IMG/VR virus record: IMGVR_UViG_3300035034_002413
Span: 1-20,002 of that record
Length of the DNA stretch: 20,002 nt
Source: a virus
Direction: 5' to 3' (one strand)
Shown here: positions 4,001-15,170 of the stretch, piece after piece
Layout of the letters: each line of letters opens with the position of its first letter
Position numbering within the stretch: the first letter of the stretch is position 1
The notes under the pieces: model-generated
Databases searched by the model: none
Seen by the model: only the letters and a program-made list of their open reading frames with translations
Told to the model about the DNA's origin: nothing
Made by a program: the position numbers and the translations under genes

Positions 4001-5791
4001 ATGTGTTTAGCTGTTTATTTAAGACTTTCGAAAGAAGATGATGATTCAAATTCAATTAAAAATCAAAGAAGGGAATCATTAGAATACATCAATAAAAAAC
4101 AAATCCAAACTTTTGAAGAATATAATGAAGGTGAAGGTAAATCTGGTACTAAAGACGAAAAAAAACGACCAGAACTGAACCGACTTATGAAAGATATTGA
4201 ACGTGGTAAAATAACTTCAATATGGATGAGAAGGCAAGATAGACTTGCAAGAAGTGGTTTATTGGTTTTAAGATTTGCAGAACTTATTGTAAAAAATAAT
4301 GTGAAACTTCATTTTGGTGATAAAGGTGATGTTGATTTAACAGACCCAATTCAAATGTTTCATCTAACTGTTATGGCTGGTGTTGATGCACTTAAACCAG
4401 CACAACAATCAAAAGGAACAAGAAAAGCTTTATTAGATAATTTTAATGAAGGTAAAGTATGGGGAGTTTATCCATACGGTTATAGAACTGATGATAATAT
4501 GAATCCATATACAGATGATTATGAAGTGAAAATTATTAATTCAATCTTTAATGATTATCTATTTGGTATATCACCATATAAAATTTCAAATCGATTAAAT
4601 GAAGATAATGTACCAACAAAATTAGGTCAATTAAAAGGCCATTTAAAAAACACAAATAAATACACCCAAGAAGAAACATTTAAACCCAAAGATTCAATTC
4701 AATGGTCAGAAAAAACAGTTAAAAGTATCTTATCTTGTACTTGGTATAATGGCATTAGAACATTCCACGAATCGAAAAAAAATGAAACAACTTTATATGG
4801 TGAAGTACCAAGAATAGTTGATGAAATTGTGTTTAATAAAGTTCAAGATGCAATAAAAGCAAGGAGAGGTAAAAGAACTTCAACACCAAAACATAATTAT
4901 CTTCTTAAAGGCCTTTTAAGATGCAAAAAATGTGGCCGTAATTATTATGGCAGATTTAGACCAGATGGAAGTGATAACGCTTATATCTGTTCAAGTAATC
5001 GTAAAGCTTCAACCAGATGTGGAAATAAAGGTTTGAATATTACTAAACTTGAATCATTCATAATTAAACATCTTTTTACAGATAAACAATTATTGAAGAT
5101 GATAGAAGCAATATCTAATGATAATGAAGTATTGAATAATATACAATCTGAAATTAAAACACTAGAAGCTAAACTTGAATCAACGACCCAAACAGTTAAG
5201 ACATATGCAAAACGTTTGGGTGCTGTTCTTAAAGACGATGAATTCATATTGAAAGAATTTCATAATGCAAAAAACCAAATACAAATCATTAAAGATTCTT
5301 TGATTAAACTTAAAATACAAGAAGCCGATTTAAGCAATTCAGAAGCCTTAAAAAACTATAAACAATATCTATCAGTAACTAATCTTGAAAGTGATTTTAT
5401 AACCCTTCAAACAGCCGTTAATAACATAATTGAAAACATTATAATTGATTCATTCACTGATAAAAATAATGTTGATATATATGAAGTAACAATTCAATAT
5501 AAAGGACTTTCTGAAACATCAACTTTCCTTTCAATTTTACCATATAATAAATGGATATATGCACATAATACCAAAGAAGCAACAACTGATGAAAAACTAA
5601 AACTAAGTAAAGAAGAAATTGAAGCTTTTGAATTTGCCTATGATACCAAAGTTAAAGATGGTGAATATCCATATGATGAAAAACCAGATGTAATTGAAAC
5701 ATCTTATGCACAACTTGAAAATATAACCCTAAAGAAAAAAGATGTTGTGAAATTTAATAAGGTAACTGAAAAACGAAAATATAAGTATTAA
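4001..5791 (+). CDS. Large serine recombinase (phage integrase)
   Basis: A 596-residue site-specific recombinase that would cut and rejoin attP with attB, forming a 5'-phosphoserine link. The N-terminal resolvase domain (about 1-150) shows YLRLS with catalytic Ser10 and Arg8, and the second active-site motif RRQDRLARS (77-85). A recombinase domain follows (about 155-300; KVWGVYPYGYR, and WYNGIRTF near 250). The zinc ribbon has C308-x2-C311 and C330 with C340. A coiled coil occupies about 375-445, then a C-terminal beta-rich segment and a charged tail from about 530. All expected residues are present, so it looks active. It starts at the ATG 19-26 bases after its own promoter, with an A-rich leader and no Shine-Dalgarno box. 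It converges on the membrane-protein gene across a bidirectional terminator. Whether it needs a directionality factor cannot be seen here. Confidence 0.93.
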   Translation: MCLAVYLRLSKEDDDSNSIKNQRRESLEYINKKQIQTFEEYNEGEGKSGTKDEKKRPELNRLMKDIERGKITSIWMRRQDRLARSGLLVLRFAELIVKNNVKLHFGDKGDVDLTDPIQMFHLTVMAGVDALKPAQQSKGTRKALLDNFNEGKVWGVYPYGYRTDDNMNPYTDDYEVKIINSIFNDYLFGISPYKISNRLNEDNVPTKLGQLKGHLKNTNKYTQEETFKPKDSIQWSEKTVKSILSCTWYNGIRTFHESKKNETTLYGEVPRIVDEIVFNKVQDAIKARRGKRTSTPKHNYLLKGLLRCKKCGRNYYGRFRPDGSDNAYICSSNRKASTRCGNKGLNITKLESFIIKHLFTDKQLLKMIEAISNDNEVLNNIQSEIKTLEAKLESTTQTVKTYAKRLGAVLKDDEFILKEFHNAKNQIQIIKDSLIKLKIQEADLSNSEALKNYKQYLSVTNLESDFITLQTAVNNIIENIIIDSFTDKNNVDIYEVTIQYKGLSETSTFLSILPYNKWIYAHNTKEATTDEKLKLSKEEIEAFEFAYDTKVKDGEYPYDEKPDVIETSYAQLENITLKKKDVVKFNKVTEKRKYKY

Positions 5792-9733: not shown

Positions 9734-10161
9734 TGATTTGGGGTTTTAGTTTTATTGAATTTGAATGTTTCATTTAGTTCAAGTTCATTCATTATTAGGT
9801 TTGATATTTCATTTAGTTCATTCATCATAAATTCTGAATGCATTTGATGGTAAGGTTTATTTTGGTACAGCACCACATTCACTTGTGCATATGATGGTTT
9901 ATTTAGTTTCATTGATATATCAGCTGTATCAATGAATAGAATGGTTCTATTGGCATCAAATGTTGATTTGTTTATGTTCTTATACAAGGTTGATTTAAGT
10001 CTCTTAGATAGTCTAAGAACTCTTTTTGTATAATCATCTTCAATGGTTGGTGTTAAGTAGGTGATTAGTTTAATTGTGATTGAAGAAGGTGTTGATTTAT
10101 CTTCAGTTTGCACTGCAACTTTATATGGTTTATTTATATTTAATTTTCTTCTTGATGTCAT
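9730..10161 (-). CDS. Unknown protein of the leftward operon
   Basis: 143 residues, basic N terminus (MTSRRKLNINKPYKV), beta-rich middle, and a C-terminal helix (SEFMMNELNEISNLIMNELE). No signal peptide or membrane segment and no motif I recognise. Its ATG overlaps the stop of the upstream winged-helix gene by one base (TAATG), and its stop overlaps the lipoprotein start by 4 bases, so it is firmly inside the operon. The middle (RTILFIDTADISMKLNK) is reminiscent of a structural or host-interaction fold, but this is not evidence of function. Confidence 0.65.
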   Translation of the reverse strand: MTSRRKLNINKPYKVAVQTEDKSTPSSITIKLITYLTPTIEDDYTKRVLRLSKRLKSTLYKNINKSTFDANRTILFIDTADISMKLNKPSYAQVNVVLYQNKPYHQMHSEFMMNELNEISNLIMNELELNETFKFNKTKTPNQ

Positions 10162-10397
10162 TAGTTAATTGAGTATATAATTCTTTTGTTATTCCAGATT
10201 CCAGATACATCATCAAATGTTTTTGATGTTGCTTTTGTTATCAGTTGTTTTTTTACAAGGCTTCTAAGGCATTTATTAATTTGGTATTCTGATATACCAT
10301 CTATTCTATCTTTGATTTGTGCATTGGTCATTTTAAATGCATCTGGTGATGATGTATTAATTAATTCAAGCAGTTTTTCTTCATAATTTGTTTTCAT
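10161..10397 (-). CDS. Small winged-helix DNA-binding protein
   Basis: 78 residues. Helix (NYEEKLLELINT), then MTNAQIKDRIDGISEYQINKCLRSLVKKQLI as a helix-turn-helix with a recognition helix around 38-50, and a two-strand wing ending in NKRIIYSIN. This is the layout of small MarR/Rep-type winged helix proteins that act as repressors or replication accessory factors. It sits in the leftward operon 7 bases after the next upstream gene and is translationally coupled to the gene after it. It may bind one of the repeat families in the intergenic region at 11.8-12.6 kb; that is inference. Confidence 0.65.
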   Translation of the reverse strand: MKTNYEEKLLELINTSSPDAFKMTNAQIKDRIDGISEYQINKCLRSLVKKQLITKATSKTFDDVSGIWNNKRIIYSIN

Positions 10398-10823: not shown

Positions 10824-11756
10824 TTATGCATTATTTGGCATTGCGATTGTTTTTTCAAACCAATCTTGATTATTTGCAGCCATTTGATTATATTCTTGTT
10901 CTTCTTTGCTTATTGTCATTTGAATTACCTTTGATTCTGGTTCTGGTTGAACTGGTTCTGGTTGAACTTCAATGATTGGTTCTAATATTGGTGTTGGTAG
11001 TTGTTTAATATCTTCAGCAAGTTTCAATACTTCACTTGGTGCTAATTCGTGACCCTTTATATTAGTGTACATATATTTTGAAGTTATCATTGCATCACCA
11101 ACTTCTTCAAGTGTTGCATCATTTATATCAAAAAATGATATGTTAGAATTTAAACTCAATTTCTTTCGAATATTATCAGCCATTATTTCAATTGCACCAT
11201 CACTATCAATTACAGTTTTCAAAATATTTTTGATTGGATATTTTTCAGTTGATGGTGTGGTAACCACAGTTGGTTCTGGTGATGCTTCAGAAGCATCTGG
11301 TTCAACTTGAATTGGTTCAGTTGGTGTTTGGATATCTTCAACCGTTGGTGCTGTTATAGCTTCTTTTTTACCAGTTAAAATATCATTAGCACTTTCATAA
11401 TCTTCTTTACTTAATTTAATTCTTGGTTGAATGGTAATATCTTCACCATCTAATATTTTATATACATCTTCATTGATTGAAATATTTCTATCTGAACCAG
11501 AATGACCTTCATTAAATATTTGGGTTGTGGTGATTATATTCTTCTGGTGTAGTTTGCGAATAATTTTATTGATTGTATCTTTTTTCAAATGGTTGAAAAT
11601 CTTATCTGAAATTGATTTATCAGATATGAATATGTTTTTAATGTTTTCGCTTTCGTCCATTGAAATCAGAAGATTCAGTATTATAAATTCATTACCATTT
11701 AGATTTGGAATTTTAAAGATTCCATCATATTGTTTGGAGTAGGTTCTATTTTTCAT
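10824..11756 (-). CDS. Winged-helix protein beside the origin region, possible replication initiator
   Basis: 310 residues. The N-terminal domain (about 15-95) is a winged helix: NEFIILNLLISM helix, ISDKSISDKIF, recognition-type helix KKDTINKIIRKLHQKNII, then a beta wing (TTTQIFNEGHSGSDRNISI). A Pro/Glu/Thr-rich linker runs from about 130 to 170, followed by a helical domain (about 172-245), a second Pro/Glu repeat linker (PILEPIIEVQPEPVQPEPE) and a charged C-terminal helix. This is the two-domain layout of phage replication initiators of the O/DnaD kind: DNA-binding head, flexible linker, helicase-loader contact. It is the first gene of the leftward operon and starts at the edge of the iteron-bearing region, as initiators often do. 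A plain transcription regulator is the main alternative. Confidence 0.6.
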   Translation of the reverse strand: MKNRTYSKQYDGIFKIPNLNGNEFIILNLLISMDESENIKNIFISDKSISDKIFNHLKKDTINKIIRKLHQKNIITTTQIFNEGHSGSDRNISINEDVYKILDGEDITIQPRIKLSKEDYESANDILTGKKEAITAPTVEDIQTPTEPIQVEPDASEASPEPTVVTTPSTEKYPIKNILKTVIDSDGAIEIMADNIRKKLSLNSNISFFDINDATLEEVGDAMITSKYMYTNIKGHELAPSEVLKLAEDIKQLPTPILEPIIEVQPEPVQPEPESKVIQMTISKEEQEYNQMAANNQDWFEKTIAMPNNA

Positions 11757-11808: not shown

Positions 11809-11881
11809 AACCCCCACAACACCCAGTGTTGCGCACTGGGCTAATCAAAATGATTAAAGGGGTTGGATTATGTCACAATCC
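11809..11881. promoter_or_regulatory. Cluster of nested hairpins in the divergent intergenic region
   Basis: Outer stem AACCCC (11809-11814) with GGGGTT (11859-11864) encloses two perfect hairpins: CCCAGTG/CACTGGG (11822-11828, 11834-11840) and TAATCA/TGATTA (11842-11847, 11851-11856). A further hairpin GGATT/AATCC (11865-11869, 11877-11881) abuts it. There is no T-run and the flanking genes diverge, so a terminator is unlikely. It could be a structured RNA leader of the leftward operon or a DNA structure at the origin. Confidence 0.45.
11846..11878 (-). promoter_or_regulatory. Possible promoter of the leftward operon
   Basis: Read on the minus strand, TTG (plus 11876-11878) and TCATTTTG (plus 11846-11853) are 22 bases apart; the second differs from TAnnTTTG at one position. 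Both boxes lie inside hairpin arms, so folding and transcription could interfere. The leader to the ATG at 11756 would be about 80 bases. Confidence 0.25.
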
Positions 11882-11900
11882 TTTATTATAAATATGTAGT

Positions 11901-12000
11901 TATTTTTGTAACGTCATACTTTTTTTCTATGGGAAAGATTGAAGTGATAGTTTTAAACTATATTGAGAATAATCTTATGGGTTATATACGGTTGAAGTGA
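11901..12000 (+). promoter_or_regulatory. TAnnTTTG box followed by a 23-codon leader-like frame
   Basis: TATTTTTG at 11901-11908 is an exact TAnnTTTG match, but no good -33 TTG lies upstream. Twenty bases on, an ATG at 11929 opens a 23-codon frame (MGKIEVIVLNYIENNLMGYI and three more residues) ending with TGA at 11998-12000. It points right, toward the iterons, with no gene for another 590 bases. It may be a leader peptide, a primer or regulatory RNA at the origin, or chance. Confidence 0.25.
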
Positions 12001-12051: not shown

Positions 12052-12166
12052 AATAACCCACTAGGATATATATACTAGTACCACTAGGATGGTTATACTA
12101 GTACCACTAGTATATATATCCTAGTACCAGTAGGATGGTTATACTAGTGCCACTAGGATGGTTATA
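12052..12166. repeat. Five tandem 23-bp iterons
   Basis: Units start at 12052, 12075, 12098, 12121 and 12144, with no spacers. The core is CTAGTACCACTAGG, followed in most units by ATGGTTATA; the first unit is divergent in its left half and the third ends in TATATATC. Each core contains a 5-bp palindrome CTAGT/ACTAG around ACC. An inverted 12-bp copy of the core lies at 12298-12309. Spacing of just over two helical turns places all cores on nearly the same DNA face, as in iterons bound by Rep-type initiators. Confidence 0.75.
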
Positions 12167-12295
12167 CTACTCTAATAAGACTACTATATTAGATAACTAA
12201 ATAAGAATACTAAATAAGAATACTTTATTAAAAAATATATATAAATAAAATATTATATATAATTAATAATATTAATACTAATAAGACTTTTACAA
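12167..12295. other. AT-rich stretch with tandem 13-mers, candidate DNA unwinding element
   Basis: Almost pure A/T over about 130 bases directly beside the iterons. It contains two abutting identical 13-mers CTAAATAAGAATA (12197-12209, 12210-12222) and a third degraded copy (12223-12235). Iterons next to AT-rich 13-mers is the classic layout of a replication origin with a melting region. Confidence 0.55.
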
Positions 12296-12297
12296 AT

Positions 12298-12309
12298 ATC
12301 CTAGTGGTA
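12298..12309 (-). repeat. Inverted copy of the iteron core
   Basis: ATCCTAGTGGTA is the reverse complement of TACCACTAGGAT, the 12-base core of the tandem units. It lies about 130 bases right of the array, on the far side of the AT-rich stretch. Inverted distant copies are known in plasmid origins where the initiator represses its own gene or pairs two sites; which applies is not visible. Confidence 0.55.
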
Positions 12310-12513: not shown

Positions 12514-12561
12514 TATTTTCTACTTTTTTCAAAATAAATTGACTTTACAATTATTCAATCA

Positions 12562-12578
12562 TATTTATATATAAACAA
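12562..12578 (+). promoter_or_regulatory. Shared AT-rich element upstream of the rightward operon
   Basis: TATTTATATATAAACAA ends 8 bases before the ATG at 12587 and matches 14 of 17 bases with the element at 13396-13412. A TTGACT lies at 12539-12544, 17 bases upstream of it. It may be a promoter -10 region, perhaps for the phage sigma factor, or simply a leader element. Confidence 0.3.
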
Positions 12579-12815: not shown

Positions 12816-13049
12816 ATGAATATATACCAACTTCTAACAAAAGATAATAACCTTCAAACCTTAATCAAATTAATTAGAAATGATATACAAGTTGATGTAA
12901 CCTTAATTCAACATCTTTCAATTTATGATAAGTTCAATCAATTAACTGGTTCGAAAAATAGAAGGTATAAATTATTAGCTGAAGAATTTCGTTTACACCC
13001 TAAAACAATTCAACGTATAATTTTAAAATTAAATAAGAAAACAAAATGA
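12816..13049 (+). CDS. Small helix-turn-helix protein
   Basis: 77 residues, basic. The C-terminal half KNRRYKLLAEEFRLHPKTIQ (46-65), followed by a basic helix, reads as a helix-turn-helix (AEEF turn HPKTIQRIILKL as recognition helix), like homeodomain-type HTH segments in small phage regulators and small terminase subunits. The stop overlaps the next ATG by 4 bases (ATGA). Position at the start of the morphogenesis side fits a late regulator or a DNA-recognition subunit for packaging; the second is attractive because no other terminase candidate is visible, but it is not demonstrated. Confidence 0.65.
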   Translation: MNIYQLLTKDNNLQTLIKLIRNDIQVDVTLIQHLSIYDKFNQLTGSKNRRYKLLAEEFRLHPKTIQRIILKLNKKTK

Positions 13050-13905: not shown

Positions 13906-13933
13906 GACACTTCAAAACGTTTTAATTATCTAT

Positions 13934-13960
13934 GAAAACACCCCTAAAAAGGGTGTTTTC
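13934..13960 (+). terminator. Strong terminator before the head operon
   Basis: A perfect 10-bp stem GAAAACACCC / GGGTGTTTTC with a 7-base loop, then TTATTT. An ATG inside its left edge (13932) is in frame with the protease but cannot be the real start, since it lies within the hairpin. Confidence 0.85.
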
Positions 13961-13968
13961 TTATTTAT

Positions 13969-13990
13969 GTAACATCTTGACGTTACATCT
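13969..13990. promoter_or_regulatory. Direct repeat upstream of the head operon
   Basis: GTAACATCT (13969-13977) and GTTACATCT (13982-13990) differ by one base with a 13-bp period; TTGAC sits between them. The head operon needs a promoter in this 67-base gap, since a terminator precedes it, but no TAnnTTTG box is present. These could be activator or alternative-sigma sites. Confidence 0.35.
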
Positions 13991-14027
13991 AGTGATTTAC
14001 AGCTGCTTTACCACTATGTATAAAGGT

Positions 14028-15170
14028 ATGAAAGCAACTATATATATAAATGGTGTTGTTGGTGAAGATATCAATCTTTTAGATGTCATCAGACAATTCA
14101 AATCTTATTCAAATCCTTCAGAAGTTGAAGTTATCATTGATAGCGTGGGCGGCTCAGTGTCGGTTGGACAATCTATATTTTCGTATTTACGAGGTTTAGA
14201 ATTACCAATTACAACAGTAGCTAAACAAGCTTATTCAATCGCTGCTTCAATCTTTATGGCTGGAGATACTAGAATTGCTGAAGCTGGTATGAATAGGTTA
14301 ATGATTCACCTACCGTTTGCACAAGTTCAAGGTGGTTCAAAATACCTTGATGAAGTATCTAAGGAATTGAAAGCATTAGAAAATGACTTCGTAAAATTCT
14401 ATTCCACATATACAAACATTTCAGAACAATCAATTAGAACATTACTAGAAAATGAAACATTCATTTCTGGTGAAGATGCTGTTGAATTAGGATTAGCAAC
14501 TGAAGTTAGAATTCCACTTCAAGCGGTTGCATTTTATAACATAGAAAAAGAAGAAAAAACGATGAGTAAAGTAGAAAAATTTATGAATGCATTGAATGCA
14601 TTTTTTACAGAAGAAGTTGAAGTAAAAGCATTGGTATTACAAGATGCAAATGGAACTGAAATTTCATTTGATGAAGTAGCTGAAGATGCACAACCAACAA
14701 TTGGTGATAAAGCAACAGTTGATGGTTCACCAGCAAGTGGTGAATATGTTTCACCAGATGGTGAAGTATGGGTTTTTGAAGGTGGTACACTTTCAGAAGT
14801 TAAACCAGCTGAAGTTGAAGAAGAAGAAACTGAAGAAGCAACTGAAGAAGTTGAAGATGTTGAAGTTGATGCATCAGCTGAAGAAGTTGAAACGGTTGAA
14901 GCAACTGAAGAAGTTGAAACAGCGGTTGAAACTGAAACTGAAGAAGAAGAATTAAACTTTGAAGAATTAATCAAATTATTTGAAGAAAGAATCACAGCAA
15001 AACTTCAAGAAGAAAATAAAGAATTAAAAGCTGAAATAACAGCTATTAAAAAATTAATAGGTAGTGAAGATGTGACAATTACAGCACAAAATACACAACC
15101 AAACACAAATAATAATGGTGGTATGACCAAATCAGCGTCAATACTATCAACTCTTAAAAATAGAAAATAA
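14028..15170 (+). CDS. ClpP-like head maturation protease with C-terminal scaffold
   Basis: 380 residues from MKATIYINGVVGED; the open frame reaches back to 13932 but that part runs through a terminator hairpin. Residues 1-about 170 are a ClpP/S49-like serine protease: oxyanion segment IIDSVGGSVSVGQ (36-48), catalytic Ser70 in AYSIAASIFMAGD, catalytic His94 in LMIHLP, and the closing FISGEDAVELGLATEV. From about 178 onward the protein changes to a very acidic, Glu/Val/Thr-rich low-complexity segment, a short coiled coil (FEELIKLFEERITAKLQEEN) and a basic C terminus (STLKNRK). It would digest the scaffold and trim capsid subunits in the prohead. It ends one base before the capsid gene. The fused protease-scaffold layout is known from lambda C/Nu3. 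Confidence 0.88.
   Translation: MKATIYINGVVGEDINLLDVIRQFKSYSNPSEVEVIIDSVGGSVSVGQSIFSYLRGLELPITTVAKQAYSIAASIFMAGDTRIAEAGMNRLMIHLPFAQVQGGSKYLDEVSKELKALENDFVKFYSTYTNISEQSIRTLLENETFISGEDAVELGLATEVRIPLQAVAFYNIEKEEKTMSKVEKFMNALNAFFTEEVEVKALVLQDANGTEISFDEVAEDAQPTIGDKATVDGSPASGEYVSPDGEVWVFEGGTLSEVKPAEVEEEETEEATEEVEDVEVDASAEEVETVEATEEVETAVETETEEEELNFEELIKLFEERITAKLQEENKELKAEITAIKKLIGSEDVTITAQNTQPNTNNNGGMTKSASILSTLKNRK
14562..15170 (+). CDS. Internal in-frame start for a separate scaffold protein (Nu3-like)
   Basis: An ATG at 14562 (MSKVEKFMNALNAF) is in frame within the protease gene, just where the protease domain ends, and is preceded by an A-rich stretch (AAAAAGAAGAAAAAACG), the type of leader used for starts in Bacteroidota. 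It would give a 202-residue acidic scaffold lacking the protease, ending in the basic helix expected to contact the capsid shell. Lambda makes Nu3 from inside gene C in the same way. The internal start is inferred and not shown. Confidence 0.55.
   Translation: MSKVEKFMNALNAFFTEEVEVKALVLQDANGTEISFDEVAEDAQPTIGDKATVDGSPASGEYVSPDGEVWVFEGGTLSEVKPAEVEEEETEEATEEVEDVEVDASAEEVETVEATEEVETAVETETEEEELNFEELIKLFEERITAKLQEENKELKAEITAIKKLIGSEDVTITAQNTQPNTNNNGGMTKSASILSTLKNRK

Follow-up and report, generated by a model that had tools for sequence, protein, structure and literature searches.

In the origin of phage lambda, dimeric O protein binds tandem 19-bp iterons, each an imperfect inverted repeat, and an A/T-rich tract lies alongside (PMC7466680). 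The origins of phage SPP1 combine direct repeats with an A/T-rich unwinding element, one of them located between genes at the late-region boundary and the other lying in gene 38 (PMC6316719). In the origins of RepA_N and PLE replicons, semi-palindromic iterons occupy a noncoding region, and the DNA-binding domain of the initiator covaries with the origin (PMC7145576 and PMC8263062); this joint variation of RepA and ori has been proved for PLE RepA/ori pairs (PMC8263062). Our searches of open-access papers turned up no description of an iteron origin from a flavobacterial phage. The intergenic region that we analyzed had been taken, in a sequence-only reading, for a probable origin of a type commoner in plasmids than in tailed phages, a remark that was too strong because both lambda and SPP1 carry such origins. 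We found in this region three of the features by which iteron origins are recognized: near-identical tandem units (~17-24 bp), an A/T-rich neighbor, and a linked gene for a DNA-binding initiator.

The window, by which we mean the whole stretch of DNA that was analyzed (20,002 bp), is an entire IMG/VR entry classed as a linear fragment. It derives from a tailed, temperate phage of Flavobacteriaceae type, for which Cellulophaga phage phi46:1 is the nearest named phage (43% identity in the head protease). Encoded in the window are a tape-measure-like protein, an HNH endonuclease, a sigma-factor-like protein, and a large serine integrase (4001-5791), and no phage helicase or primase was visible in these 20 kb. 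The leftward gene block reaches 11756, and the rightward block contains small genes, a Clp-like head protease (13932-15170), and a capsid-like protein, a layout that bears out the placement of the repeat array between divergent operons. The C-terminal part of the head protease is encoded by glutamate-rich tandem repeats (14811-14936). Inspection by eye of related loci also revealed a ComM-like fragment between the tail genes and the serine integrase of one relative (G001; L012 9357-10037), which perhaps marks an attachment site, and ~465-aa proteins with polymerase-like motifs and no Pfam match (L012 11935-13341 and L026 3072-4460).

The array consists of five abutting 23-bp units on the plus strand with the consensus CCACTAGGATGGTTATACTAGTA, starting at 12058, 12081, 12104, 12127, and 12150 with a spacing of exactly 23 bp. 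The five spacer-less units were thus as had been proposed, and the array extends over 12058-12172 rather than starting at 12052. We assessed repeat significance by composition-weighted self-matching against shuffled sequences, since A/T-rich shuffles match themselves and make counts of 19-mer families uninformative. The best self-match in the intergenic region scored 55.9, versus 11.7 +/- 1.1 in 30 dinucleotide shuffles, and a 23-bp query with up to three mismatches matched four of the five units, with none expected in shuffles. An exact scan of IMG/VR for the window iteron returned no match. Over a 20-bp core, the exact reverse complement of unit 1 is identical to unit 3 (12104), a relation not noted in the sequence-only reading; the two units themselves differ at only two positions, which lie opposite each other across the dyad. 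Each unit therefore behaves as an imperfect dyad, which suggests that the array unit is a two-fold symmetric binding site. Dyad symmetry within single units was not significant in the window (P = 0.22) or in the related loci L006, L014, and L015, and reached significance only in L013, L038, and L044. The lambda-like idea of one dimer per unit hence rests on these three loci together with the inversion between units 1 and 3.

Immediately beyond the array are four tandem 13-bp units on the plus strand (12173-12224; consensus AAATAAGAATACT), with TAATAAGACTACT at 12173, ATATTAGATAACT at 12186, and AAATAAGAATACT at both 12199 and 12212. Most of this stretch is taken in by a tract at 12185-12284 that contains 7 G/C per 100 bases, fewer than any other 100 bp of the 20-kb record, the next lowest having 13 G/C. 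Both the tandem 13-mers and the nearly pure A/T stretch adjoining the array were therefore correctly anticipated, and we consider the tract, with the 13-mers as a part of it, a putative DNA unwinding element of no assigned strand. Beyond the tract, at 12297-12309, the minus strand carries an exact inverted repeat of the iteron core, TACCACTAGGATA. Its location on the far side agreed with the earlier description, and its length is 13 bp instead of 12 bp. Because the other arm has been lost, this copy represents one half of an iteron. We observed no DnaA boxes at the array site, and those in the window were fewer than expected by chance. The motif TTCAACCAG to the right of the array recurs within coding sequence and lacks specificity for this region. 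The GC-skew check that had been proposed for an origin gave no turn, as skew was positive on both sides of the array with no sign change. Skew thus provides no support for bidirectional replication from the array, and replication could be unidirectional, or skew may be uninformative here.

The first gene of the leftward block (10824-11756, minus strand) encodes a putative replication initiator. In agreement with what had been read from the sequence, a winged helix was modeled in the N-terminal region (approximately residues 8-110) of the predicted fold, followed by a long low-confidence linker and tail. The top structural matches of the predicted fold were iteron-binding domains of RepA_N proteins (4pql, Z 9.3; 4pt7, Z 8.9; 5kbj, Z 8.3), and the best VIA-align rows, which span ~100 residues, were equaled by LexA, CRP, and further winged helices of generic type. 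Families of the replication initiation and O-like kinds dominated the PHROG matches of array-linked winged-helix proteins. The window protein weakly matched phrog_678 (E 1.5e-4), and the proteins of two relatives matched phrog_270 (L038, E 2.5e-11) and phrog_428 (L044, E 4e-10). In tests against the O family, the L038 protein matched phrog_391 (E 5e-7), and Pfam Phage_rep_O matched the L014 protein at an E value of 0.026, below the family cutoff. No RepA_N sequence model was among the Pfam and NCBIfam matches, which included only a weak DnaD_N match. The protein is not established as a member of either the lambda O or the RepA_N family. Tight searches of IMG/VR and named phages found relatives of neither the initiator nor the next protein. 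A second small winged-helix-like protein of 78 aa (10161-10397, minus strand; E 3.5e-5 to a rep winged-helix profile) is encoded downstream in the leftward operon. Winged-helix proteins resembling the L013 initiator are also encoded upstream of BrxA/BrxB-like BREX genes in two loci that contain no array (L066 2155-2961 and L067 2178-2984), and the family is therefore not confined to replication.

Searches with the head protease gathered relatives, six of which contained an array. Four were from bacterial genomes, including prophages of Tenacibaculum soleae (L013), Mariniflexile gromovii (L014), and Zunongwangia (L015) and a prophage in a genome of the same family (L044), and two were IMG/VR records (L006 and L038). 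Their arrays contain three to six mostly tandem units of 21-24 bp and occupy the same slot, between a leftward winged-helix gene and a rightward operon of small genes and head genes. The units are TATGCAATATGCCTAACATAACT in L014 (with an exact 23-bp period), TTGTTCGATTATCGAA in L013 (spacing 64/46/23), GACCACTTTAGTTTTTATCCT in L015 (21 bp), GATATAATCTGTAGATGATGT in L006, GGTGCAGAATCTGCAC in L038, and GGCTCAAAATGAGC in L044 (spacing 24/24/31). Self-matching exceeded that of shuffles for all arrays (z 9 to 51). The lowest-GC 100 bp of the locus fell in the array intergenic region in five of the six loci with a complete region, the window included, and in each of the six loci with the left side present, the first leftward gene encoded a winged-helix protein. 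The L006 contig does not show the left side of the array, and no iteron was present at its far end. Three loci without the winged-helix gene (phi46:1, L016, and L049, the last a fragment) had no array.

Between genomes, iteron units were as different as shuffled units, with no sequence common to the arrays. Among the relatives, identity was 57-67% for head proteases and 15-40% for winged-helix domains. Judged by sequence, the array turns over together with the initiator gene while its position stays. The iteron motif also occurs within the rep gene in L038 (two copies) and L044 (one copy) besides the intergenic array, and at that stringency it was found nowhere else in these two loci except at L044 4840 (three mismatches). 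No iterons were found inside the rep gene of the window.

Three explanations other than an origin are very improbable. Slippage can generate tandem arrays in A/T-rich noncoding DNA, and the array might be a functionless repeat of that kind. However, arrays of unrelated units with a near-equal period occupy the same location in seven genomes, unit 3 is an exact inversion of the core of unit 1, and an inverted half-copy lies detached from the array, all of which make a slippage product hardly credible. The start of the rightward operon leading to the head protease and capsid genes would also suit a packaging (cos/pac) site with units bound by the small terminase. We regard this as very improbable, since the array tracks the leftward winged-helix gene, the late genes are conserved while the units change, and the terminase-like genes that we recognized by eye in relatives are a long way downstream, within the late region (L012 206-835 and L047 1496-2731). 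A partition centromere of a plasmid-like prophage, for which tandem arrays are typical, appears extremely improbable given that Pfam and PHROG scans of the window genes revealed no ParA/ParB-like gene and that the window encodes a serine integrase.

The outward-pointing motif TTGAC-N-TATTTAT-N-TAAA was present on both flanks in the window and relatives. In the window, it corresponds to a putative leftward (rep) promoter, ATGAC-N-TATTTAT-N-TAAA (11888-11920, minus strand), and a putative rightward promoter, TTGAC-N-TATTTAT-N-TAA (12540-12575, plus strand). These promoter-like motifs might serve the phage's own sigma factor. The rightward operon of relatives starts with a sigma-70 region-2-like ORF (~160 aa) and continues with a helix-turn-helix ORF of 77 aa (L038 6857-7563, L017 552-1285, and L013 8406-9135); the window retains the 77-aa ORF alone of this pair (12816-13049). 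The pair is possibly a two-gene sigma factor.

The position of the array between divergent promoters of the same motif raises an alternative in which the units are operators, and the winged-helix protein or the 78-aa protein (10161-10397) represses or activates both promoters without any origin being present. Winged-helix proteins are commonly regulators, and the BREX-linked relatives of the L013 protein are in keeping with such a role. However, the array does not lie on the promoters, and its distance to the promoter motif varies from about 100 to 900 bp across the window and relatives, which argues against a plain operator. An A/T minimum with 13-mers accompanies the array, the PHROG matches are to replication initiation families, and some iteron copies lie within rep coding sequence. 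For these reasons, we consider an operator array unlikely.

The initiator gene has a G/C-rich structured 5' leader (11812-11881, minus strand) that directly follows the leftward promoter motif and comprises a small hairpin and a two-stem element with an asymmetric internal loop of 5-8 nt on the 3' side. Leaders were located in L014 (7166-7224), L038 (5991-6054), and L044 (6892-6959). The structure beat 300 of 300 shuffles in the window, L014, L038, and L044 and 298 of 300 in L013; a structured leader was absent in L015. No Rfam family matched the leader at a useful score. A covariance model built from L038 and L044 found L014 (E 1.4e-4), did not match in the window, L013, or L015, and recovered only the source genome from 397 genomes of the family. 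Since covariance homology is demonstrable for L014, L038, and L044 only, the window leader has a similar shape with homology not proved.

Together, our findings make it likely that the region is an iteron origin bound by the product of 10824-11756, like lambda ori, SPP1 oriR/oriL, or RepA_N origins. The proposal of a probable replication origin is supported by the array, A/T tract, and initiator-like gene being placed together in relatives and drew no support from a GC skew without a turn. The anatomy of the locus, its positional conservation, its link to an initiator-like gene, and the turnover of iterons with the initiator come directly from our analysis, and we infer that the initiator binds, that the tract melts, that a replisome is recruited, and in which direction replication runs. 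In the model that we propose, the region would act as an iteron-type theta origin of a temperate Flavobacteriaceae tailed phage. The winged-helix initiator would bind the five imperfect-dyad 23-bp units, probably as one dimer per unit, and the adjoining A/T-rich tract with its 13-mers would melt. The half-iteron that lies inverted beyond this tract may set where the melted region is placed or where it ends, and the host helicase and primase would presumably then be loaded.

We also put forward, tentatively and as a doubtful extension of this model, that the initiator gene, 5' leader, iterons, and unwinding element form a swappable replication module. The DNA-binding domain and iterons would be exchanged together among phages that are otherwise conserved, and the leader would be an undescribed cis-regulatory RNA setting the initiator level. 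If so, this group of phages would divide into origin compatibility types in the way that plasmids do, and swapping would possibly be driven by origin-directed nucleases of rivals. The seven loci, which share their layout and have unrelated iterons, are a natural set for studying initiator-origin coevolution, the array region is a compact candidate origin for Flavobacteriaceae vectors, and the structured rep leader provides a lead on replication control in these phages.

Compared with lambda, the window similarly has tandem imperfect-dyad iterons by an A/T tract and a winged-helix gene matching O-like PHROGs. In contrast, the lambda iterons are 19 bp and lie within the O gene, whereas those of the window are 23 bp, abutting, and intergenic; moreover, similarity to O is weak, and no P-like helicase loader was recognized in the window. 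Possession of both intergenic and in-gene iterons, as in the relatives L038 and L044, resembles SPP1 oriR and oriL (gp38). The window differs in having the intergenic site alone, and genes for a gp39/gp40-type helicase and loader were not seen in its 20 kb. Relative to RepA_N and PLE replicons, the host belongs to another phylum, and the element is a phage that carries virion genes of its own rather than a satellite or plasmid. The RepA_N/PLE likeness lies in a winged-helix domain predicted to bind iterons, with 4pql, 4pt7, and 5kbj among the best matches of the window protein alongside generic winged helices, in semi-palindromic iterons placed in noncoding DNA, and in iterons that vary with the initiator across relatives while the head protease stays 57-67% identical.
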